A stretch of 64,000 nucleotides of DNA from contig NZ_CP137852.1 in assembly GCF_033547095.1 (NCBI RefSeq), positions 2,287,501-2,351,500 of the forward strand, in the 5' to 3' direction. The position numbers were made by a program, and so were the translations under genes. Positions 2,484 through 14,301 of the stretch are shown one piece after another; position 1 is the stretch's first letter, and every line of letters starts with the position of its first letter. The notes under the pieces are model-generated. The model made no database searches and was not told the origin of the DNA. It worked only from the letters and a program-made list of their open reading frames with translations. This DNA is from Sediminicoccus rosea. Its GTDB lineage: Bacteria; Pseudomonadota; Alphaproteobacteria; Acetobacterales; Acetobacteraceae.

Positions 2484-3331
2484 AATTGGAAGCTTCCGCC
2501 CTCGGCTTCGCGGCGCTCGGCCAGCCCACCCGGCTGGAGCTGATGCGCCGCCTCATGGCCGCCGGCCCCAACGGCCTCGCCGCCGGGGAGGCCGCGCGGC
2601 AGCTTGGCGTGGCGCCCTCCAGCCTCTCCTTCCATCTGCGCGCGCTCGAGCAGGCGGGGCTGATCGCCCCGCGCCGCCAGGGCCGCCAGCTCTTCTACGC
2701 CGCGCAATTCCACGCGCTGCGGCAGATGATCGCCTTCCTGGCCGAGGGCTGCTGCGACGGCCAGCCCGAAGGCTGCGGCGACATCGCCCGGCTTCTTCCC
2801 ACCCCCATGACGGAGCGGCGCATGCCTCTCTTCAACGTCCTGTTTCTCTGCACGCACAATTCGGCGCGCTCCATCATCGCCGAGGCGGTGCTGGCGAAGG
2901 TGGGGGAGGGGCGGTTCCGCGCCTTCTCCGCCGGTTCCGCACCCCGGCCCGCAGGCCCGCTGCCCGAGGTGATCAGCCAGCTCAGCGCGCTGGGGCATGA
3001 CGTCTCGGGCCTGCGCAGCAAATCCTGGAATGAGTTCGCGGGGCCCGAGGCGCCGCGCATGGATTTCGTGATCACGCTGTGTGACATCCTCTCGGGCCAG
3101 GCCTGCCCGGATTTCGGCGGCACGGTGACCACCGCCGCCTGGCCCCTGCCGGACCCCGCGAAGTTCAGCGGCAATGCGGCCGAGCGCGCGGCCCTGCTGA
3201 ACGAGCTCTATGCCGGGCTGCAGCGCCGTATCGAGATCTTTGTGAGTCTGCCGGTCACGACGCTGGACCGCATGGCGCTGAAGGCGAGGCTCGATGAATT
3301 GGCGCATCCGCGCCCGGTGCAGCGCGCATGA
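2480..3331 (+). CDS. ArsR repressor fused to LMW-phosphatase-type arsenate reductase
   Basis: A 283-residue two-domain protein. Residues 1-105 form an ArsR winged helix with a C-terminal cysteine cluster, C91-C92 and C99. This resembles the CC-plus-C As(III) site of ArsR proteins that sense through their C-terminal end. Residues 117-280 form a low-molecular-weight phosphatase fold with the CX5RS loop (C124 to R130), a DP acid motif (D225) and a further cysteine pair, C201 and C209, as in thioredoxin-coupled arsenate reductases. The protein should sense arsenite and reduce arsenate. It heads an operon with the GAPDH and ArsJ genes; its stop overlaps the next ATG by 4 bp. Confidence 0.9.
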
Positions 3332-4371
3332 GGGTCGGCATCAACGGGATGGGGCGCATCGGGCGGCTCGCCCTGCGCGCCGCGCTGGGCGCCGCGGAGC
3401 GCCCGGTGGAGGATCCGCGCGCGGGGCATCGCCTCGACGTCGTGCACCTCAACGAGATCAAGGGCGGTGCGCCCGCCATCGCGCATCTGCTGGAATTCGA
3501 CAGCGTGCAGGGCCGTTGGCGCGCGCCCATCGCCGCGGAGGGCAAGGACGCCATCCGCATCGGCGCGCGCCGCATGGGCTTCTCCGAGCATGCGCGGCCG
3601 GGCGAGATTCCCTGGGGCGATCTCGGCGTGGACCTCGTGCTGGAATGCACCGGAAAGTTCCTGACGCCCGAGGTCCTGCAAGGCCATCTCGACCGTGGGG
3701 CGAAGCGCGTCATCGTCGCCGCCCCGGTGAAGTTCGACAGCGTGCTGAACATCGTGGTCGGCGTGAACGAGCATCTCTACGACCCCGCGCGCCACCCCAT
3801 CGTCACCGCCGCCTCCTGCACCACCAATTGCCTGGCGCCGCTGGTGAAGGTGGTGCACGAGGCGATCGGCATCCGGCACGGCCAGATCACCACCATCCAT
3901 GATCCGACCAACACCAATGTCGTGGTGGATGCGCCGCACAAGGATCTGCGCCGCGCGCGCTCGGCCATGCTGTCGTTGCAGCCGACAACGACGGGCAGTG
4001 CGACGGCCATCGCGCTGATCTATCCGGAGCTGAAGGGCAAGCTGGATGGCCATGCGGTGCGCGCCCCGGTGCTCAACGCATCGCTCACCGATTGCGTCTT
4101 CGAGATGCGGCGGGAGACGACGGTGGCGGAGGTGAACGCCCTCTTCGCCGCGGCCGCCGACGGCCCGCTCGCCGGCATCCTGGGCTTCGAGCCGCGCCCG
4201 CTCGTCTCCGCCGATTATGCCCGGGACACGCGGAGCTCCATCGTGGATGGTCTCTCCACCCTCGTCACGGATGGCACGCTGCTCAAACTCTATGCCTGGT
4301 ATGACAATGAGATGGGCTATGCCTGCCGCATGGTGGACCTGGCCTGCCACATGGAGCGCGTGGGGCTGTGA
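3328..4371 (+). CDS. ArsJ-associated glyceraldehyde-3-phosphate dehydrogenase
   Basis: A 347-residue GAPDH with the NAD motif [10 protein letters not shown] at the N-terminus, catalytic C164 in [10 protein letters not shown] and H191. The N-terminal insertion and the position next to arsJ are typical of the arsenic-operon paralogue. In the known ArsJ pathway this enzyme uses arsenate in place of phosphate to make 1-arseno-3-phosphoglycerate, which ArsJ exports. It overlaps the ArsR-ArsC gene by 4 bp and arsJ by 4 bp. A housekeeping gap function is less likely because of this context. Confidence 0.93.
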
Positions 4372-5579
4372 GGAACTACGGCATCGTCACCGCCGCCTAT
4401 TGGGGCTTCACGCTGACCGATGGCGCGCTGCGGATGCTGGTGCTGCTGCATTTCTTCCGCCTCGGCTTCTCGCCCTTCACGCTGGCTTTCCTCTTCCTGC
4501 TCTATGAGGCGGCCGGCGTGGTGGCGAACCTGATCGGCGGCTGGCTCGCCACGCGCTTCGGCATCGCGCGCATGCTGGCCGTCGGCCTCGCCACGCAGAT
4601 CCTGGGCTTCCTGCTGCTTTCGGCCGTCTCGCCCGATTGGGGGATGGCGCTCTCCGTCGCCTGGGTCGTGCTGGCGCAGGGGCTCTGCGGCGTCGCGAAG
4701 GATCTGACGAAGACGGCCAGCAAATCCGCCATCAAGCTGACCGCGCCCGATGCGAGCGGCACCCTCTTCAAATGGGTCGCCTTCTTCACCGGCAGCAAGA
4801 ACGCCATGAAGGGCCTGGGCTTCTTCCTGGGCGGGCTGCTGCTGGAGGCGCTGGGCTTCCAGGGCGCGCTCTGGCTGATGGCGGCGCTGCTCGGCGCGGT
4901 CCTCGCTGGCGTGGTGCTCGCGCTGCCGCCGCTGATGGGCAAGGCGCGCGCCTCGAAATCCGCGCGCGAGCTCTTCGCCCGCAACCGCGGCGTGAACCTG
5001 CTGGCCGCCGCGCGCGTCTTTCTCTTCGGCGCGCGGGATGTGTGGTTCGTCGTCGGCCTGCCGGTCTTCCTCTACGCGGCTGGCTGGAGCTTCGCGATGG
5101 TGGGCGGGTTCCTGGCCCTCTGGACCATTGGCTACGGCGTCATCCAGGCAGCGACCCCGGCGCTGGTGCGCCGCAGCGCGGATGGGCTGAGCGCCGAGGT
5201 CCCGGCGGCGCGCGCCTGGTCGCTGGCCCTCGCGCTGATCCCGGCCGGCCTCGCGCTGCTGCTGGCGGGCGGTGCGCCGCGTCCGGACCTGCTGGTGCCT
5301 GCCGGCCTCTGCCTCTTCGGCCTCGCCTTCGCGGTGAATTCCTCGCTGCATTCCTACCTGGTGCTGGCCTATGCGGGCAGCGAGAAGGCGGCGGAGGATG
5401 TCGGCTTCTACTACGCCGCCAATGCGCTCGGCCGTTTCGGGGGCACGCTGCTCTCCGGCCTGCTCTACGGCTGGGGCGGCATCTCTGCCTGTCTGATCGG
5501 CTCAAGCCTGATGCTGGCTGCCTGTTGGTTGGTCACCCTCTTGCTGCCCACCCGCGCTTTGGCGCCGGGGGCGGCATAA
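4368..5579 (+). CDS. arsJ: Organoarsenical efflux MFS transporter ArsJ
   Basis: A 403-residue polytopic membrane protein of the major facilitator type with about 11-12 hydrophobic segments. The N-terminus [22 protein letters not shown] is followed by a [13 protein letters not shown] segment typical of ArsJ. It is expected to extrude 1-arseno-3-phosphoglycerate from the cytoplasm. The start is GTG (4368-4370) inside a GTGA overlap with the GAPDH stop, which indicates translational coupling. No further arsenic gene follows; the next gene is a phosphonate-type binding protein after 64 bp. Confidence 0.92.
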
Positions 5580-6679: not shown

Positions 6680-7738
6680 ATGCTGCGCCTGCCCGAGCCC
6701 TTCCTGAATGTGGCCGGGCTCGGCCGTGATTTCGGCCGCTTCACCGCCGTGCAGGAGGTGCAGCTTGCCGTGGCCGAGGGTGAATTCCTCTGCCTGCTCG
6801 GCCCCTCCGGTTGCGGCAAGACGACGCTCTTGCGGATGATCGCGGGGCTGGAGGCGCCGAGCCGCGGGCGGATCTTCCAGGCAGGGCGGGAGGTGACGCA
6901 TCTGCCGCCGGCCGCGCGGGATTTCGGCATCGTCTTCCAGTCCTACGCGCTCTTCCCGAACATGACCGTCGCCGCGAATGTCGGCTACGGGCTGCGTGGC
7001 CCCGCCTGGCCGCGCGCGCGGGCCGAGGCGCGGGTGGCGGAATTGCTGGCGCTTGTCGGGCTCTCGGCGCAGGCGGCGCGCTACCCCGCGCAGATCTCGG
7101 GCGGGCAGCAGCAGCGCGTGGCGCTGGCCCGCGCGCTGGCGAACGAGCCCGGCCTTCTGCTGCTGGACGAGCCGCTCTCGGCGCTGGATGCCATCGTGCG
7201 GCTGCACCTCCGGCAGGAGCTGCGCGGGCTGCAGCGCCGCCTGGGCATCACCACCATCATGGTCACGCATGACCAGGAGGAGGCGCTGAGCCTGGCCGAT
7301 CGCGTGGCGGTGATGGATCGCGGTCGCATCATGCAACTCGGCACGCCGGAGGAGGTCTATGCCCATCCGGCCAATCCCTTCGTGGCGGGCTTCGTCGGGC
7401 GCAGCACCAGCTTCGAGGCGGTGGTGGAGGGCGCGGGGGTGCGCCTCGCCGATGGCACGCATCTGCCGGCCCTGGCGGCGCCCGACCATGCGCCCGGCAC
7501 CGCGGTGCGCGTCTTCATCCGGCCCGAGGATGTGGCGTTGGGCGGCGCGGGCGCGCTGACCGGCCGGCTGACCGGCATCGAGTATCTGGGCCCGGTCTGC
7601 CGGCTGGAGCTGCATGCGGCCGGCCTCAGCTGGCAGGCGGAGGTGGCGCCGCGCGCCTTGCAGGGCGTGGCCCTGGGCGCCGAGATCCCGCTCACTTTGC
7701 CGCCCGACAAGCTGATGCTCTTCGCCCCGGATGTCTGA
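6680..7738 (+). CDS. 2-aminoethylphosphonate-type ABC transporter, ATP-binding protein
   Basis: A 352-residue ABC ATPase with Walker A GPSGCGKTTL (41-50), signature SGGQQQRVALARAL, Walker B LLLLDEPLSALD and an H-loop in MVTHDQEEALSLADRV. A TOBE-like C-terminal domain follows, which fits the importer class of the spermidine/phosphonate/iron type. The gene starts 7 bp after the binding-protein stop and overlaps the permease by 8 bp. It energises import through the adjacent permease. Confidence 0.88.
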   Translation: MLRLPEPFLNVAGLGRDFGRFTAVQEVQLAVAEGEFLCLLGPSGCGKTTLLRMIAGLEAPSRGRIFQAGREVTHLPPAARDFGIVFQSYALFPNMTVAANVGYGLRGPAWPRARAEARVAELLALVGLSAQAARYPAQISGGQQQRVALARALANEPGLLLLDEPLSALDAIVRLHLRQELRGLQRRLGITTIMVTHDQEEALSLADRVAVMDRGRIMQLGTPEEVYAHPANPFVAGFVGRSTSFEAVVEGAGVRLADGTHLPALAAPDHAPGTAVRVFIRPEDVALGGAGALTGRLTGIEYLGPVCRLELHAAGLSWQAEVAPRALQGVALGAEIPLTLPPDKLMLFAPDV

Positions 7739-9422
7739 GGCGCTGCCCGCCCCGCGCGGCGGCCTGCTGAGCGAGGCGGCGCTGCTGCGCCTCTGCCTCT
7801 GGTTCGCCGCGCTGCTGCTGGCGGTGGGCCTCGCCCTGCCGCTCGCGACCCTGCTCGCCCGCGCCTTCCTCGGCGCGGATGACGAATTCGTGGGGCTGCG
7901 GCACTTCGCCGCCTATGCGGCGACGCCCGCGCTGCTGGTCTCGGCCTGGAACAGCACCTGGACGGCGGCGCTGACCACCGTGATCGTCGTGCCCATCGCC
8001 TTCCTCTTCGCCTATGGCCTCACGCGCTCGCGCATGCCGGGGCGGCCGGCGTTCCGTGCGGTGATGCTGATCCCGATCCTCGCCCCCTCGCTGCTGCCCG
8101 CGCTCTCGCTCATCTACCTCTTCGGCAACCAGGGGCTGCTGCGCGTCCTGATGCCGGAGGGGGCGAGCATCTATGGCGCGCCCGGCATCGTCATGGCGCA
8201 GGTGATCCATACCTTCCCGCATGCCGCCATCATCCTCTCCGTGGCGCTCGGCATGGCGGATGCGCGATTGTTCGAGGCGGCCGAGACGCTGAAGGCGGGG
8301 CGGCTGCGCATCTTCCGCGACGTCACGCTGCCCGCCGCGCGCTACGGCCTCGTCTCCGCCACCGTCGTCGTCTTCACGCTGGTGGTGACGGATTTCGGGA
8401 TTCCCAAGGTGATCGGCGGGCAGTTCCCGGTGCTGGCGACCGATGTCTACAAGCAGGTGATCGGCCAGCAGAATTTCTCCATGGGGGCGGTGGTGGCGCT
8501 GGTGCTGCTGCTGCCGGCGCTCTTCTCCTTCCTCGCCGAGCGCTGGGCGCAGCGGATGCAGGCGGGCGCGATCTCAGGCCGCGCCGTGCTCTATGTCGCC
8601 AAGCCGCGCCTCGCACGGGACCTGCCGCTGTTCCTGCTCTGCCTGGCGGTGGCGGCGGTGCTGCTCGGCATCGTCGCCATGGCGGCCTGGGGCTCGCTGA
8701 TCCGCTTCTGGCCCTACAATATGAGCCTCACCCTCGCGAATTACGACTTCGCGCGCTTCGATTCCGAGGGCTGGGGCTCGCTCTGGACCTCCGTCTCCAT
8801 GGCGGGGCTGGCGGCGCTCCTCGGCACGCCGGTGGTCTTCATCACCGCCTATCTGCTGGAGCGTGGCGCGGCGGGCGGCGCCGTTTCGGGCTTCGTGCGC
8901 GTGGCCGCGATCGCGCCGCTCGCGGTGCCCGGGCTGGTGCTGGGCCTCGCCTATATCCTGTTCTTCAACCACCCGGCCAATCCGCTGGGCTTCCTCTACG
9001 GCACGCTCGCCATCCTCGTGCTGAACTGCGTGGTGCATTTCTACACGGTGGCGCACCTCACCGCCGTCACCGCCATCCGCCAGCTCGATCCGGAATTCGA
9101 GGCGGTGGGCGCCAGCCTGCGCGTGCCACGCCGGGTGACCTTCGGGCGTGTCACCGTGCCGATCAGCCTGCCGGCCATCCTCGAGATCGCCGTCTATCTT
9201 TTCGTGAATGCGATGACGACGGTCTCGGCCGTGGTCTTCCTCTACGGGCCGGGCAGCAAGCCCGCCTCCGTCGCCGTCGTGCAGATGGACGAGGCGGGGC
9301 AGATCGCCGCCGCCGCCGCCATGGCCTGCGTCATCCTTGGAATCACGGCCAGCGTGAAGATCCTGCAGATCGGCGTGGTGCGGCTGATGACGAGCCGCGC
9401 GGGGTGGCGCGCGGGGCGCTGA
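7731..9422 (+). CDS. 2-aminoethylphosphonate-type ABC transporter, fused double permease
   Basis: A 563-residue permease with two BPD_transp_1 units in tandem, each with about six membrane segments and an EAA-type loop: AAETLKAGRLRIFRDVTLP near residue 185 and AVGASLRVPRRVTFGRVTVP near 460. The double-length fusion is the form seen in PhnU-type AEP systems and in Fe(III) FbpB proteins. It overlaps the ATPase gene by 8 bp and ends 4 bp before the stop of the convergent gene on the other strand. Confidence 0.87.
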   Translation: MSEALPAPRGGLLSEAALLRLCLWFAALLLAVGLALPLATLLARAFLGADDEFVGLRHFAAYAATPALLVSAWNSTWTAALTTVIVVPIAFLFAYGLTRSRMPGRPAFRAVMLIPILAPSLLPALSLIYLFGNQGLLRVLMPEGASIYGAPGIVMAQVIHTFPHAAIILSVALGMADARLFEAAETLKAGRLRIFRDVTLPAARYGLVSATVVVFTLVVTDFGIPKVIGGQFPVLATDVYKQVIGQQNFSMGAVVALVLLLPALFSFLAERWAQRMQAGAISGRAVLYVAKPRLARDLPLFLLCLAVAAVLLGIVAMAAWGSLIRFWPYNMSLTLANYDFARFDSEGWGSLWTSVSMAGLAALLGTPVVFITAYLLERGAAGGAVSGFVRVAAIAPLAVPGLVLGLAYILFFNHPANPLGFLYGTLAILVLNCVVHFYTVAHLTAVTAIRQLDPEFEAVGASLRVPRRVTFGRVTVPISLPAILEIAVYLFVNAMTTVSAVVFLYGPGSKPASVAVVQMDEAGQIAAAAAMACVILGITASVKILQIGVVRLMTSRAGWRAGR

Positions 9423-9426
9423 CCGA

Positions 9427-10098
9427 TCAGCGCATCACCCAGCCGCCCGAGAAGGGGAACACCTGCCCCACGAAGAAGTCGCTCTCCCCGCCGGCGAGAA
9501 ACAGCGCGAGGGCCGCGGATTCCCAGCCATGCGCGAGGCGGCCGATGGGTGTCGCCCGCATCCGTTCCTTGAAGGTCTCGGTCGCCTGGAAGCTCTCGGG
9601 GAAGTAGGTCGGGTTGTTCACATGGGTCTGCGCGATGGCGTTGACCTGCACATTGTGCGGCGCGACCTCCACGCCGACATCCTGCACATAGGCGAGCTGC
9701 GCCCCGCGCGCCGAGCCATAGGCCGTGTAGTTGGGCATGCCGCGGAGCGCCGAGGCGCTGCCGATGACGACGATCTTGCCGTGCCGGCGTTCGATCATCT
9801 GCGGCAGCACCGCGCGCACCAGGCGGTGCAGCGGGAAGACCATCGCCTCATACATGGCGCGGAAGGTCGCGTCGTCCGTCTCCAGCACCGAGCGGTCGGG
9901 CCGGATGGCGGCGAGGTTGGCGACGAGGATGTCCACATGCCCGGCTTCCGCGATCAGCGCCTCGGCCGCGCCGGGGGCGATGAGGTCGCGGTCATCGGCG
10001 ATCACCTCGGCGCCCTCCCGGCGGAAGGTGGTGAGAAGGTCGGGCCCCATGAAGGCGCTGACCTGGGTGATGACGGCGCGTTTGCCCTGAAGCCGCAT
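9427..10098 (-). CDS. SDR-fold protein with halohydrin dehalogenase motifs
   Basis: A 223-residue short-chain-dehydrogenase-fold protein. The start at 10098 is chosen because GGGAGG precedes it by about 6 bp. The glycine-rich NAD motif is replaced by T11-x4-F16-x-G18 (TQVSAFMG). The catalytic triad reads S114-x12-Y127-x3-R131, with arginine where oxidoreductases have lysine. Loss of the cofactor motif together with Ser-Tyr-Arg is the hallmark of halohydrin dehalogenases, which convert vicinal halohydrins to epoxides. No dehalogenation partner genes are adjacent. An ordinary SDR oxidoreductase annotation would miss this. A catalytically altered SDR with another role remains possible. Confidence 0.75.
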   Translation of the reverse strand: MRLQGKRAVITQVSAFMGPDLLTTFRREGAEVIADDRDLIAPGAAEALIAEAGHVDILVANLAAIRPDRSVLETDDATFRAMYEAMVFPLHRLVRAVLPQMIERRHGKIVVIGSASALRGMPNYTAYGSARGAQLAYVQDVGVEVAPHNVQVNAIAQTHVNNPTYFPESFQATETFKERMRATPIGRLAHGWESAALALFLAGGESDFFVGQVFPFSGGWVMR

Positions 10099-10209
10099 GG
10101 CCTGCCTCCCTGTGCCGGACGTGGCTGGAGGTTGCCAGAGATGGCGCAGGGACAAAAAGGGCTTGATGCGGCGCGGAGCCGCGCGCCGCCCAGCCGGGCC
10201 CTCCGTGTC

Positions 10210-10325
10210 TCAGCTCGGGGGCGGCAGCATGGAGGGATCGCCCGCGGCGATCTCCCGCACCACCGCATGCGCCTCGGCGATGAAGAGCCGTGCGGCCGCG
10301 CTCGGCCGGCTGCTGCCAAGGCGCG
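10210..10325 (-). pseudogene. C-terminal tail of a decayed gene, possibly LysR-type
   Basis: The minus-strand frame ending at 10210 reads SSRPSAAARLFIAEAHAVV followed by a short tail. This resembles the last helix of LysR-family regulators. Nothing upstream in the frame looks coding past about 10330, where the sequence changes into the tail of a VOC gene on the other strand. The assignment to LysR is tentative because only about 35 residues remain. Confidence 0.4.
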
Positions 10326-10332
10326 TCCCACC

Positions 10333-10542
10333 AGGCTGCGCGCCATCCGTGACCGCGCGTTGGCGGCGGGCAAGGCCATCCGCACCTCCAACCACGGCAA
10401 TGCCTGGGCGATCTACGTCATCGACCCCGAGGGCAATGCCCTGGAGGTCGTCGCGACCTCGCCCTACCCGATGCAACAGCCCTTCGACCTGGACGCGGCG
10501 GATACCGAGATCCCGGCCGCGACCGCCGGCCTCAGAAGGTGA
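10333..10542 (+). pseudogene. C-terminal remnant of a VOC/glyoxalase-family gene
   Basis: The plus-strand frame contains LRAIRDRALAAG, then a YVIDPEGNALEVV segment that is the last beta unit of a vicinal-oxygen-chelate domain, including the final metal-ligand glutamate. The N-terminal two thirds are missing. The frame upstream runs antisense through the neighbouring SDR-fold gene and is not VOC sequence. Its end overlaps the convergent ThDP-enzyme gene by 11 bp. Confidence 0.65.
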
Positions 10543-12337
10543 TGCCGCGCGCCGCCAGCGCCTTGAGGAAGTTGGGCTCGGGGTTGGGCAGGGGCGGCAG
10601 GTCCCAGCTGCCGGTGCCGATCGGGCGGATGTCGCGGTCCACCGGCACTTCGACGAGGTAGGGCACGTTCGCCTTCACCGCCATGGCGATGGCGTCCTCC
10701 AGCTCGCCCGCATGGGTCACGCGGTGCGAGGCCACGCCCATGCTCTTCGCCATCATCGCGAAATCGGGGCTGTAGCTCTCGCCCGTGCGCTGGATCTCGA
10801 AGGCGGTGGCGAGTTCGCGCCCGCCGAACATGCCGTGCTGGATGTCGCGGATCGAGCAGAAGCCGGAATTGTTCCACACCACCCAGACGACGGGGATGCC
10901 GTATTCCACCGCCGTCGCCAGCGCGTGCGGCGTCATCAGGAAGGAGCCATCGCCGACCACGGCCACGCAGGGCCGATCCGGCGCGGCGAGCTTCGCGCCC
11001 AGGATGCCGGAGGTCGCGAAGCCCATGGCCGCGAAGCCCCAGCTATGGATCAGGTGGCGCGGGCGCAGCGTGTCCATCAGCTGGATGATCCAGTTGTGGT
11101 GCACGCCCACATCGCTCGCCACCACCGCGTTTTCCGGCACGGCCCGGGACAGCGCGGCCATCAGACGCTCGGGGCGCAGCGGCATCTGGTCCGACAATGC
11201 GAGGCTCGACTGGTATTCGCGCCAGACCTCACGCCCGCGGGCCAGGCGATCAAACCAGGCGCCGCCTTCGCGCGGGCCGCCGGTGCGGGCCTCGGCCATT
11301 TCCAGCATGAGTTCCAGGCTCGCCTTGGCATCGCCCAGGATGCCGTATTCCGTCGGGTAGTTGCGGCCGATCTCGGTGGGGTCGATGTCGATCTGGATGA
11401 GCTTGGAGGGCGGAATGGAGAGCGTGTAGCCATCCAGCCAGGCGCTCGTCGCGCGGTCATCGAAGGAGAAGCCGAGGGCGAGGATCACATCGGCATTGCG
11501 CGTCGCGTCATTCGCCGCATAGGCGCCGTTGCGGCCGATCGCGCCGAAGGCCAGGCGATGCCGGTCGGGGATGGCGCCCTTGCCATTGGGGCTGGTGACG
11601 ACGGGAATGCCCGTGCGCTCGGCGAAGGCCAGCAGCGCGTCGCAGGCCTTGCCCAGGATCACGCCCTGGCCCGCGATGATGACGGGCTGCGTGGCCTTGA
11701 GCAGCATGTCGAGCGCGGCGCAGAGCGCCTTCGGGTTGCCCGGCGCGCCGTTGATGACCGCCTTCACGGTGGAGGAGGGGACGACCGATGCCTCCTCGAC
11801 GAAGACGTTCAGCGGCACGTCCAGGTTCACCGGGCCGGGGCGGCCGGCGGTCAGCTGGTCCCAGGCCTGCGTGACCGCCAACTGCACCATGTCGGCGCGC
11901 ATCGGCTGGTAGCTGCGCTTGACGTAGGGGCGGATCACGCTCGGGAAATCGCCCTGGAAGTGGCGGCCCGTCTCCTGGAAGGGGCCGCGGTTGAACTGGC
12001 CTGTCGGCACATTGCCGGTGATCGCCAGGAAGGCGGAGCTGTCCATCATGGCGGCGGCCAGCGCCACCACCAGATTGGCCGAGCCCGGCCCGCAGGAGGT
12101 GAAGGTCGCCACCGGCTCGCCCTTCACCTTGTAGTAGGCGTCGGCCATGTGGCCGGCGGTCTGCTCGTGATGGGTGGAGATGGTCTTGATGCGGTTCTGC
12201 GCCTTGAAGGCCGCATCCATGAAGCCCGTGATGCCATGGCCGCAGAGACCGAACAGATAGGGCACGCCCTGCTTGGTCAGGTGATCCACGATGATGTCGG
12301 CGCCGTTCATCAGCGTGGCGCGGCTCTGGCTGTCCAT
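10532..12337 (-). CDS. Thiamine-diphosphate-dependent enzyme (acetolactate synthase-like)
   Basis: A 601-residue three-domain ThDP enzyme. E58 in THHEQTAGHMADAY is the cofactor-activating glutamate, and the GDGSFLM to NNSG segment binds Mg-ThDP. The middle domain has an RNADVILALGFSFDDR segment. GGGAGAG precedes the ATG at 12337. Family members decarboxylate 2-oxo acids or join two of them. No small regulatory subunit (IlvN) is nearby, so it is probably catabolic rather than a valine-pathway enzyme. It lies in the same direction as, and 32 bp beyond, the IclR gene. The substrate is unknown. Confidence 0.85.
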   Translation of the reverse strand: MDSQSRATLMNGADIIVDHLTKQGVPYLFGLCGHGITGFMDAAFKAQNRIKTISTHHEQTAGHMADAYYKVKGEPVATFTSCGPGSANLVVALAAAMMDSSAFLAITGNVPTGQFNRGPFQETGRHFQGDFPSVIRPYVKRSYQPMRADMVQLAVTQAWDQLTAGRPGPVNLDVPLNVFVEEASVVPSSTVKAVINGAPGNPKALCAALDMLLKATQPVIIAGQGVILGKACDALLAFAERTGIPVVTSPNGKGAIPDRHRLAFGAIGRNGAYAANDATRNADVILALGFSFDDRATSAWLDGYTLSIPPSKLIQIDIDPTEIGRNYPTEYGILGDAKASLELMLEMAEARTGGPREGGAWFDRLARGREVWREYQSSLALSDQMPLRPERLMAALSRAVPENAVVASDVGVHHNWIIQLMDTLRPRHLIHSWGFAAMGFATSGILGAKLAAPDRPCVAVVGDGSFLMTPHALATAVEYGIPVVWVVWNNSGFCSIRDIQHGMFGGRELATAFEIQRTGESYSPDFAMMAKSMGVASHRVTHAGELEDAIAMAVKANVPYLVEVPVDRDIRPIGTGSWDLPPLPNPEPNFLKALAARGITF

Positions 12338-12369
12338 GAGTTTCTCTCCCGGGTGTCGTGTCGTTGAAA

Positions 12370-13155
12370 TCAGGCGGCGGCCGAGCTTGGGCTGCCGAGC
12401 ATGCGCGAGACCTGCAGCGCCGCGGCCTTGACGCGCGGCAGCACCGCCGCGCACCGCGCCGCATCCATGCGGCTCGCGGGTGCGGAGATGCCGAGCGCCG
12501 CACTCGGCCGGCCGGTCTGGTCGGTGATCGGGGCGGCCAGGCAGCGCAGGCCGGGCTCGATCTCCTCGGCATCCGGGGCCCAGCCCTGCTGGCGGATCTG
12601 ATGCAGCGCTTCGCGCAGCGCCTCGGGCGTGGTGATGGTGGCGGGCGTGAAGCGGGGCAGGCCATGGCGGGCGATGATCGCCTCCACCTCCGCATCGGGA
12701 AGATAGGCCATGAGCAGCTTGCCGAGCGCGCTCGCATGGGCGGGGCTGCGCTTGCCCACGCGCGAATGCATCCGCACGGCGTGCGTCCCCTCGACGACCT
12801 GCACGGTGACGACCTCGCCCTCATGCAGGATGCCGACATGCACCGTCTCGCCGGTCTCCTCGGCGAGCGCCTGGATGGGGGGCAGGGATTGCCAGCGCAA
12901 TTGCTCCTGCCGGACGGCGGCATTGCCCAGCGCATGCAGCGCGAGGCCGGGCACGTGCCGGCCATTCGCATCCTTCGCCAGGAAGCCGGCGGCTTCCAGC
13001 GTGTGCAGCACGCGGAACAGCGTCGCCTTGTTCTGGCCGAGCTCGGTCGCGAGTTCGGCGAGGCTCCAGGAGGGGCGGCGCGCGAAGCAGCCGATCACCT
13101 CCAGCCCGCGATGGAGCGAGGCGAGGTGGTAGGGGTCTTTTGCGCCGGTGGTCAT
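12370..13155 (-). CDS. IclR-family transcriptional regulator
   Basis: A 261-residue regulator with an N-terminal winged helix-turn-helix (SLAELATELGQNKATLFRVL, about residues 32-51) and a C-terminal IclR effector domain with SPAHASALGKLLMAYLPDAE. The start at 13155 (MTTGAKD) gives the normal family length; an in-frame ATG at 13182 would add nine residues. It is transcribed toward the ThDP enzyme and divergently from the first TctC gene, so it probably controls both. The effector is unknown. Confidence 0.9.
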   Translation of the reverse strand: MTTGAKDPYHLASLHRGLEVIGCFARRPSWSLAELATELGQNKATLFRVLHTLEAAGFLAKDANGRHVPGLALHALGNAAVRQEQLRWQSLPPIQALAEETGETVHVGILHEGEVVTVQVVEGTHAVRMHSRVGKRSPAHASALGKLLMAYLPDAEVEAIIARHGLPRFTPATITTPEALREALHQIRQQGWAPDAEEIEPGLRCLAAPITDQTGRPSAALGISAPASRMDAARCAAVLPRVKAAALQVSRMLGSPSSAAA

Positions 13156-13220
13156 GTCGGTCTTTCGCTCAGCGGAACGCATCGGCGTGATGATACGCTT
13201 GACCGCGCCAGGCGAAAAGG

Positions 13221-13237
13221 GTTTCGATATACGAAAC
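13221..13237. promoter_or_regulatory. GTTTCG-N5-CGAAAC palindrome (candidate IclR operator)
   Basis: GTTTCG (13221-13226) and CGAAAC (13232-13237) are exact inverted repeats separated by ATATA. They lie in the 171-bp divergent region between the IclR and TctC genes, 66 bp from one start and 90 bp from the other. IclR-family regulators bind short palindromes of this type in such divergent regions. Assignment to this regulator is by position only. Confidence 0.55.
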
Positions 13238-13326
13238 GGGTGGACGCCAGCCGCGCCACCCCGCACACTGCCCATCACGTCCAGGAAAGGCGGGCCGAAG
13301 ATGCCCGCACACAGGGAGAAGACCGG

Positions 13327-14301
13327 ATGAAGAAGCGCGTCCTTGCCGCCGCGGCGGCGCTTTGGCTGGGCTTGGCACCCCAGGCCCAGGCCCAGGAATT
13401 CCCCAGCCGCACCATCAACATGATCGTGGTCTTCGCTCCCGGCGGCGCCACCGACGTGCTGGCCCGCATCGTCGCACAGCACATGACGCGCACGCTCGGC
13501 CAATCGGTCGTGGTCGAGAACGTGACGGGTGCCGGCGGCACCATCGGTGGCACGCGCGGCGCCAATGCGGCGCCCGATGGCTATACGCTCACCGTCGGCA
13601 GCCTCGGCAGCCATTCCGCCTCGGCCTCCATCTACCGCAACCCGGGCTATGACCCGCGCGAGCTGCAGCCGATCGGCCTGATCGCCGGCACGCCCATGTT
13701 CTTCGTGGTGCGCAACGGGCTGCCGGCGCGGACCATGCAGGAATTCCTGGCCCTGACGCGCGAGAATCCGGGCCGCGTTTCCAACGCCAATGCCGGCGTG
13801 GGCAGCACCAACCACCTGGGCTGCGCGCTCTTCTCGCACGTCACCGGCGTGCGGATGAACGAGATCCCCTATCGCGGCGAGGGCCCGGCGCTGAACGACA
13901 TCGTGGCCCAGCAGGTGGACAGCGCCTGCCTGCTGGCACCGGCCGCCGTCCCGCAGATCGCCTCCGGCACCATGCGGGGCCTGGCCGTCGCCGCCACCAC
14001 GCGCAACCCCAATGCGCCGAACGTGCCCTCGGCCGTCGAGGCCGGGGTGCCGGAATATGTCTTCCAGGGGTGGAACGCCATCTTCGCGCCGCGGGGCACG
14101 CCCGCCCCCGTCGTCGCGCGCCTGAACGCCGCGCTGCGCGCCGCGCTGGAGGACCCCGCCATCATCCGCCGCATCGAGGAGCTGGGCTCCATCCCCGCGC
14201 GGCCCGACCAGCGCAGCCCCGAGGCCTTGCAGGCCCTGGTGCGGAGCGAGGTGGAGCGCTGGGCGACGGTGATCCGCGCCGCCGGCATCCAGCCGCAATA
14301 G
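13327..14301 (+). CDS. Tripartite tricarboxylate transporter receptor (TctC/Bug family), copy 1
   Basis: A 324-residue secreted binding protein. The signal peptide runs to about residue 22 (AQAQEFPSR). The Bug-family hallmarks follow: MIVVFAPGGATDVLARIVA, GAGGTIG and AAPDGYTLTVGS. TctC proteins capture carboxylates for TctAB permeases, but no tctA or tctB gene lies nearby, as is common for the many orphan Bug proteins in this group of bacteria. It is divergent from the IclR regulator and probably controlled by it. Confidence 0.9.
   Translation: MKKRVLAAAAALWLGLAPQAQAQEFPSRTINMIVVFAPGGATDVLARIVAQHMTRTLGQSVVVENVTGAGGTIGGTRGANAAPDGYTLTVGSLGSHSASASIYRNPGYDPRELQPIGLIAGTPMFFVVRNGLPARTMQEFLALTRENPGRVSNANAGVGSTNHLGCALFSHVTGVRMNEIPYRGEGPALNDIVAQQVDSACLLAPAAVPQIASGTMRGLAVAATTRNPNAPNVPSAVEAGVPEYVFQGWNAIFAPRGTPAPVVARLNAALRAALEDPAIIRRIEELGSIPARPDQRSPEALQALVRSEVERWATVIRAAGIQPQ

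Follow-up and report, generated by a model that had tools for sequence, protein, structure and literature searches.

Halohydrin dehalogenases (HHDHs) convert a halogenated alcohol to an epoxide and are easily taken for ordinary dehydrogenases. They are used in the synthesis of chiral epoxides and beta-substituted alcohols, and there is interest in finding further members. A 223-aa frame in a 64,000-nucleotide stretch of the Sediminicoccus rosea genome (hereafter the window) raises the question of whether it encodes such an enzyme or an ordinary SDR oxidoreductase, and what an HHDH would do at this place. The motifs, homology searches, phylogeny and cofactor-site residues described below indicate that the gene very probably encodes a cofactor-free HHDH of the B/D branch, with the corresponding activity predicted.

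The gene and its motifs

The frame lies on the minus strand, with an ATG at 10098 and a stop codon ending at 9427, and its protein reads MRLQGKRAVITQVSAFMG...GGWVMR (Table 1). A published PHI-BLAST filter for HHDHs combines T-X4-F/Y-X-G with S-X12-Y-X3-R and yielded 37 new genes, with activity confirmed for a selection of 19 (PMC4989007). The initial annotation had stated that this frame matches both HHDH motifs exactly, and both were found in it, motif 1 reading T11-Q-V-S-A-F16-M-G18 and motif 2 comprising S114, Y127 and R131.

Table 1. Features of the HHDH locus and its surroundings, in window positions.
Feature	Position	Strand	Basis or remark
HHDH gene (predicted), 223 aa, B/D branch	9427..10098	minus	motifs, PDB sequence search, tree, Foldseek, cofactor-site comparison
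Motif 1, T11-x4-F16-x-G18 codons	10045..10068	minus	occupies the place of the NAD glycine loop
Motif 2, S114-x12-Y127-x3-R131 codons	9706..9759	minus	putative catalytic triad
AGGGAGG, likely ribosome-binding site	10105..10111	minus	6 nt before the ATG; inferred from position
Left-flanking phnU2-like permease gene, converging on the HHDH gene	7731..9422	plus	TIGR03262 above cut-off
TPP-dependent enzyme gene, right flank, acetolactate-synthase-like	10532..12367	minus	no model reaches cut-off; in 9/20 congeners
1,099-bp segment absent from congener G009	9425..10523		blastn against L124; ends uncertain by about 2 bases
VOC-family gene remnant	10219..10542	plus	tblastn against plasmids, blastp against one VOC protein

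As a control, 40 other SDR-like places were fetched from the same genome, of which 39 gave a frame and one gave none; six of the 39 frames rest on weak matches (E above 0.01) and are uninformative. Neither the pair of HHDH motifs nor S-x12-Y-x3-R by itself occurs in any of the 39, a motif-1 lookalike occurs in one, where it overlaps that frame's Ser motif, and the ordinary S-x10-14-Y-x3-K occurs in 28. Judged from these frames, the filter is selective in this genome. Among homologues, a scripted check recovered both motifs in 20 of 22 HHDH-like rows and in none of five ordinary SDR rows; motif 1 is also present in L008, where the start had been called too far upstream. The HHDH-like protein of L018 carries Trp at the aromatic place of motif 1 (T-x4-W-x-G), outside the published motif. 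Nei-Gojobori dN/dS values against five relatives range from 0.10 to 0.20, synonymous sites being close to saturated in four of these pairs, and the frame is thus under purifying selection.

A probably recently gained segment

In congener G009 (locus L124), the phnU2 and TPP-enzyme genes are convergent and abutting, without an HHDH gene. In blastn alignments, window positions 9000-9424 correspond to L124 7725-8149 (90%) and window positions 10524-13350 to L124 8142-10973 (92%), and the segment between them consists of the HHDH gene, 425 bp before the gene and 2 bp after it. The segment also bears the remnant of a VOC-family gene, which aligns at 37% with residues 42-158 of a VOC protein 182 aa long, lacks the first 41 residues, and has its stop beyond the end of the inserted segment; Pfam returned no match for the 67-residue VOC-like piece. 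The presence of this truncated gene makes the segment look like DNA that originated elsewhere. Its G+C is 0.70 against 0.71 and 0.68 in the flanks, and no convincing target-site duplication or terminal repeats were found at its ends.

The distribution of the gene was surveyed with the window protein (P0002) as query, scoring only the best candidates of the first look. At E 1e-30 the HHDH gene was found in none of the 20 congeners and in none of 39 other members of the family. At 1e-40 it was present in three of 396 others in a family sample, in nine of 384 others in a class sample, and in a single record among 72,556 of plasmids. Within the genus of L001, four of 265 genomes have it, L001's own counted. 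The HHDH gene is rare and scattered. Since no congener among the 20 has it, gain in the window's lineage appears more probable than loss in G009, and the gene has the appearance of an accessory gene acquired recently.

Nine congeners with the TPP-enzyme gene were fetched, and phnU2 lies near that gene in two of them, G009 and G015. About 3 kb of different DNA occupies the phnU2/TPP-gene junction of G015 (L132:5091-8116), and so this spot may take up DNA repeatedly. An operon of the HHDH gene with the TPP enzyme is rejected on the ground that 9/20 congeners have the TPP-enzyme gene and 0/20 the HHDH gene; the TPP gene near the HHDH gene of L003 is a glyoxylate carboligase gene, whose product is 30% identical to the window's TPP enzyme. 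Farther off in the window, at 3328-5579, lie an ArsJ organoarsenical efflux gene and its partner glyceraldehyde-3-phosphate dehydrogenase gene, both above NCBIfam cut-offs.

The protein could also be an HHDH by descent that does no useful work here, its gene having moved alone and now heading for loss. Such a fate would fit the truncated VOC gene that shares the 1.1-kb segment, the fact that the regulator and hydrolase genes of the relatives are not alongside, and the dN/dS of 0.20 against L003, which exceeds the 0.04-0.13 of the other computable pairs. We nevertheless consider decay unlikely, given that the frame is intact, the ribosome-binding site good, the catalytic residues kept, dN/dS far below 1, and a related epoxide hydrolase encoded in the genome.

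Family placement and cofactor site

Pfam assigns the 223-aa protein to SDR families only, and NCBIfam gives 194 SDR-type matches, none of the best 25 of which reaches its cut-off. In a sequence search of the PDB, the closest entries are HheD2 (7b73; 2e-66), HheD8 (8xxb; 4e-65) and HheB (4zd6; 6e-61); these and 5b12 all score 1e-60 or better, and the next entry, 6a41 ('dehalogenase'), follows at 7e-28. Entry 7b73 is HheD2 (PMC9629495), and the PDB titles in the Foldseek output name 8xxb as HheD8 with chloride and 4zd6 as HheB. Identities over aligned positions are 115/220 to HheD2, 115/220 to HheB, 113/222 to 8xxb, 77/217 to 6a41 and 65/209 to HheC.

HheD2 and HheD8 (the latter crystal entry being a triple mutant) share both motifs, length and fold with the window protein at 52% and 51% identity, and differ from it in that the window protein falls in a separate well-supported tree group. 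HheB from Corynebacterium sp. N-1074 likewise has both motifs and 52% identity, but carries Tyr for Phe in motif 1 and sits on a separate branch. HheC from Agrobacterium radiobacter AD1 (PDB 1pwx) also has both motifs, and like chemistry would be expected of the two proteins, although identity is only 31% and HheC retains a segment after beta-2 that is absent from B/D types.

An IQ-TREE tree was determined from 32 rows, comprising 27 HHDH-type sequences and five SDRs, with only five reference stretches among them. All 27 HHDH-type rows are split from the SDRs (support 100/99), the window protein falls in a 22-row B/D set with HheB, HheD2 and 8xxb (98/98), and within that set it forms its own group of five rows with L001-L004 (100/100); with five reference stretches in the tree, the forks between B and D types have no settled order. 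An AlphaFold2 model built from 10 sequences (pLDDT 78.3, pTM 0.80) was compared with solved structures by Foldseek, and chains of HheD2, HheD8 and HheB occupy ranks 1-9. TM-scores of this predicted model to HHDHs (0.83-0.84) are only slightly above those to ordinary SDRs (0.77-0.82), so that fold alone separates the two families poorly and is not decisive. Prediction quality is low around the active site, in residues 115-123, 159-167 and 182-187, and the model is too uncertain there to show a halide pocket.

Compared with SDRs, TQVSAFMG replaces the glycine loop (T-G/A-X3-G/A-X-G), ANLA replaces the NNAG-type motif, Met86 replaces the helix Asn, Arg131 replaces the catalytic Lys of Y-x3-K, and, like HheB and HheD2, the protein lacks a segment that follows beta-2. 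With these NAD-site features changed, NAD(P) use appears very unlikely. A rival reading, as an NAD(P)-dependent SDR oxidoreductase that has Arg in place of Lys and an unusual loop, would account for the SDR fold, for the SDR-only names from Pfam and NCBIfam, and for TM-scores to SDRs that come near those to HHDHs. It would leave unexplained why four cofactor features are changed together in a protein that is 52% identical to two HHDHs of solved structure and is grouped with them at 98/98, and we therefore hold it to be highly improbable.

The comparisons instead support membership of the B/D-branch HHDHs rather than the NAD(P)-dependent SDRs, and by sequence the protein is very probably a further HHDH in a known family, in a tree group of its own. 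The initial annotation had proposed a candidate HHDH hidden among SDR proteins and suggested a search and a tree with SDRs, together with a fold model; the identities, the tree and the altered cofactor site bear the proposal out, and the solved structures nearest to the model are HHDHs, with the reservation on TM-scores given above. Its expectation that automatic annotation would apply SDR names also proved right, both for the window protein and for a relative on a plasmid. Only its description of the protein as short does not stand, since 223 aa is normal for B/D types: HheB has 227 aa, and the match to the HheD2 chain extends over about 221 residues.

In the mechanism described for HHDHs, Ser positions the substrate, Tyr takes a proton, Arg tunes Tyr, and the halide leaves into the motif-1 pocket (PMC4989007). 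We hypothesize that in the window protein Ser114 would hold the hydroxyl of a vicinal halohydrin, that Tyr127, its pKa lowered by Arg131, would take the proton, and that the alkoxide would displace the halide, yielding an epoxide, with the released halide ion sitting in a pocket that T11-x4-F16-x-G18 lines. Working in reverse, the enzyme would also be expected to open epoxide rings with halide, azide, cyanide or nitrite. Within the cell, the enzyme would make the epoxide and an epoxide hydrolase encoded elsewhere would open it to a diol.

Gene neighbourhoods of relatives

Twenty-five HHDH loci, several of which end at contig ends, were compared: the window, L001-L009, L039-L050 and L071-L073. 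The HHDH-type places L017, L018 and L019, which fall outside the B/D set, were left out, and neighbour queries were drawn from the neighbours themselves, so that other kinds of neighbour may be missed. In six of the 25 loci (L001, L002, L003, L004, L050 and L071, of which L001, L002, L004 and L071 share descent), an immediate neighbour of the HHDH gene on the same strand encodes a protein of the epoxide hydrolase or haloalkane dehalogenase kind, with spacings from a 16 bp overlap to 47 bp apart in the frames as called. With these queries, the other 19 loci, window included, gave no such hydrolase gene directly beside the HHDH gene; in L046, a sequence about 1.2 kb away matches the haloalkane dehalogenase of L003 at 33%. 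Each of the five nearest relatives found (76-84%) has the hydrolase gene directly beside its HHDH gene, and the product is epoxide-hydrolase-like in four, including one LinB-like fusion, and a DhlA-like haloalkane dehalogenase in one.

The hydrolases themselves differ between loci. For that of L002 the best match is 8hgu (an alpha/beta hydrolase, 2e-86), followed by isobutylene epoxide hydrolase 9c2g (9e-69) and soluble epoxide hydrolase 1ehy (4e-64). In L003 (2203-3848; Roseomonas sp. MO-31), the HHDH gene, 84% to the window's, lies 47 bp before a haloalkane dehalogenase gene whose product passes the NCBIfam haloalkane dehalogenase cut-off and is nearest to 2xt0 (1e-103) and the 1ede group, which we take to be DhlA-type haloalkane dehalogenases. 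It represents a subfamily other than the LinB-like one of L001. In L001 (6666-8552; Bradyrhizobium erythrophlei GAS478), a 628-aa frame directly follows the HHDH gene with a 4-bp overlap and joins an L002-like hydrolase half to a haloalkane dehalogenase half of the LinB kind (7pw1, 2e-122; LinB entries, 1e-112), while in L071, from the same genus, the hydrolase is unfused (299 aa). In L050, an annotated epoxide hydrolase gene precedes the HHDH gene by 11 bp. This locus (8796-10669) is on the Novosphingobium resinovorum conjugative plasmid pSA2, where the HHDH is annotated as an SDR family oxidoreductase.

Other neighbours recur as well. A TetR-like gene (weak family match) is divergently upstream of the HHDH gene in L002, L003 and L004. 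Glutathione S-transferase genes adjoin the HHDH gene in L040 and L042 and occur at a greater distance in L047, L008 and L001; all five were selected visually, and Pfam then supported the assignment, weakly for L040. In L007 (3495-4886) and L008 (6757-8148) the HHDH gene is immediately followed by HpaB-like flavin monooxygenase genes, which score below the NCBIfam cut-off, and farther on in L003 are an IclR-like gene and the glyoxylate carboligase gene.

A HisD/HpsN-like dehydrogenase gene precedes the HHDH gene in L001 (4639-5964), L004 (4652-5998) and L071 (5803-7128). The L001 enzyme matches DHPS 3-dehydrogenase (HpsN) at 1e-112 and histidinol dehydrogenase at 4e-75, and the better match to the former suggested 3-chloro-2-hydroxypropanesulfonate as substrate. 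His126 of HpsN recognises the sulfonate (PMC11382572). With the numbering offset inferred, this position is Met in all three dehydrogenases (Lys353 being kept), which weakens the case for a sulfonate pathway. These proteins have KFPM where HpsN has RYAH, and they appear to be a third kind beside HisD and HpsN. The window's genome (L025) encodes a 50% relative with KYPL.

Neither an epoxide hydrolase gene nor a haloalkane dehalogenase gene adjoins the window's HHDH gene. Elsewhere in the genome, at C1:397285-398139, is an L002-like hydrolase gene, whose product is 53% to the hydrolase half of L001 and 49% to that of L002. The LinB-like half of L001 has no match in the genome at 1e-10, the L003 haloalkane dehalogenase has partial matches only (best 7e-12), and the TetR-like regulator of the relatives has no close match (33%). 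With no partner beside the window copy and a related hydrolase elsewhere, the strain's route likely runs from halohydrin to epoxide by the predicted HHDH, and from epoxide to diol by the hydrolase encoded elsewhere or without an enzyme. A role in phosphonate use with the neighbouring phnS2-T2-U2 genes, for example in action on an epoxyphosphonate, is suggested by the adjoining phnU2 and is rejected as having next to no plausibility, because in G009 phnU2 and the TPP-enzyme gene adjoin each other with no HHDH gene between them, phnS2/phnU2 lie near none of the 24 other HHDH loci examined (E 1e-8), and the HHDH gene and phnU2 are convergent.

A possible natural route for small halocompounds

The founding HHDHs came from strains enriched on haloalcohols or epihalohydrins (PMC4989007). 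Another study reported that, in databases as they then stood, searches had turned up no genes for haloalkane dehalogenases of the DhaA type, or for haloalcohol dehalogenases of the dichloropropanol-metabolism kind, outside strains isolated on such compounds (PMC3414701). Searches of the open-licence literature for natural HHDH gene sets gave no title or abstract dealing with those described here.

An engineered route for 1,2,3-trichloropropane combines DhaA, HheC and EchA (PMC5539299). The same three enzyme kinds occur together in L001, as an HHDH and a separate protein that fuses epoxide-hydrolase-like and LinB-like halves, with the difference that L001 belongs to a natural Bradyrhizobium genome; the window's own genome has no LinB-like match. 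We tentatively propose, as a possibility that we would not yet favor over its negation, that a natural route for small halocompounds has been assembled more than once, leading from haloalkane dehalogenase through HHDH and epoxide hydrolase to the third-kind dehydrogenase, and that the window copy is the module's central enzyme, moved alone to a new host and working with an epoxide hydrolase encoded elsewhere.

If this is true, the assembled route would be a natural counterpart of the engineered one. The natural fusion of an epoxide hydrolase with a LinB-like haloalkane dehalogenase is of practical interest, and the compact gene sets of the relatives, each with an epoxide hydrolase or haloalkane dehalogenase and three with a TetR-like regulator, make the natural role of HHDHs testable in terms of inducer and substrate.
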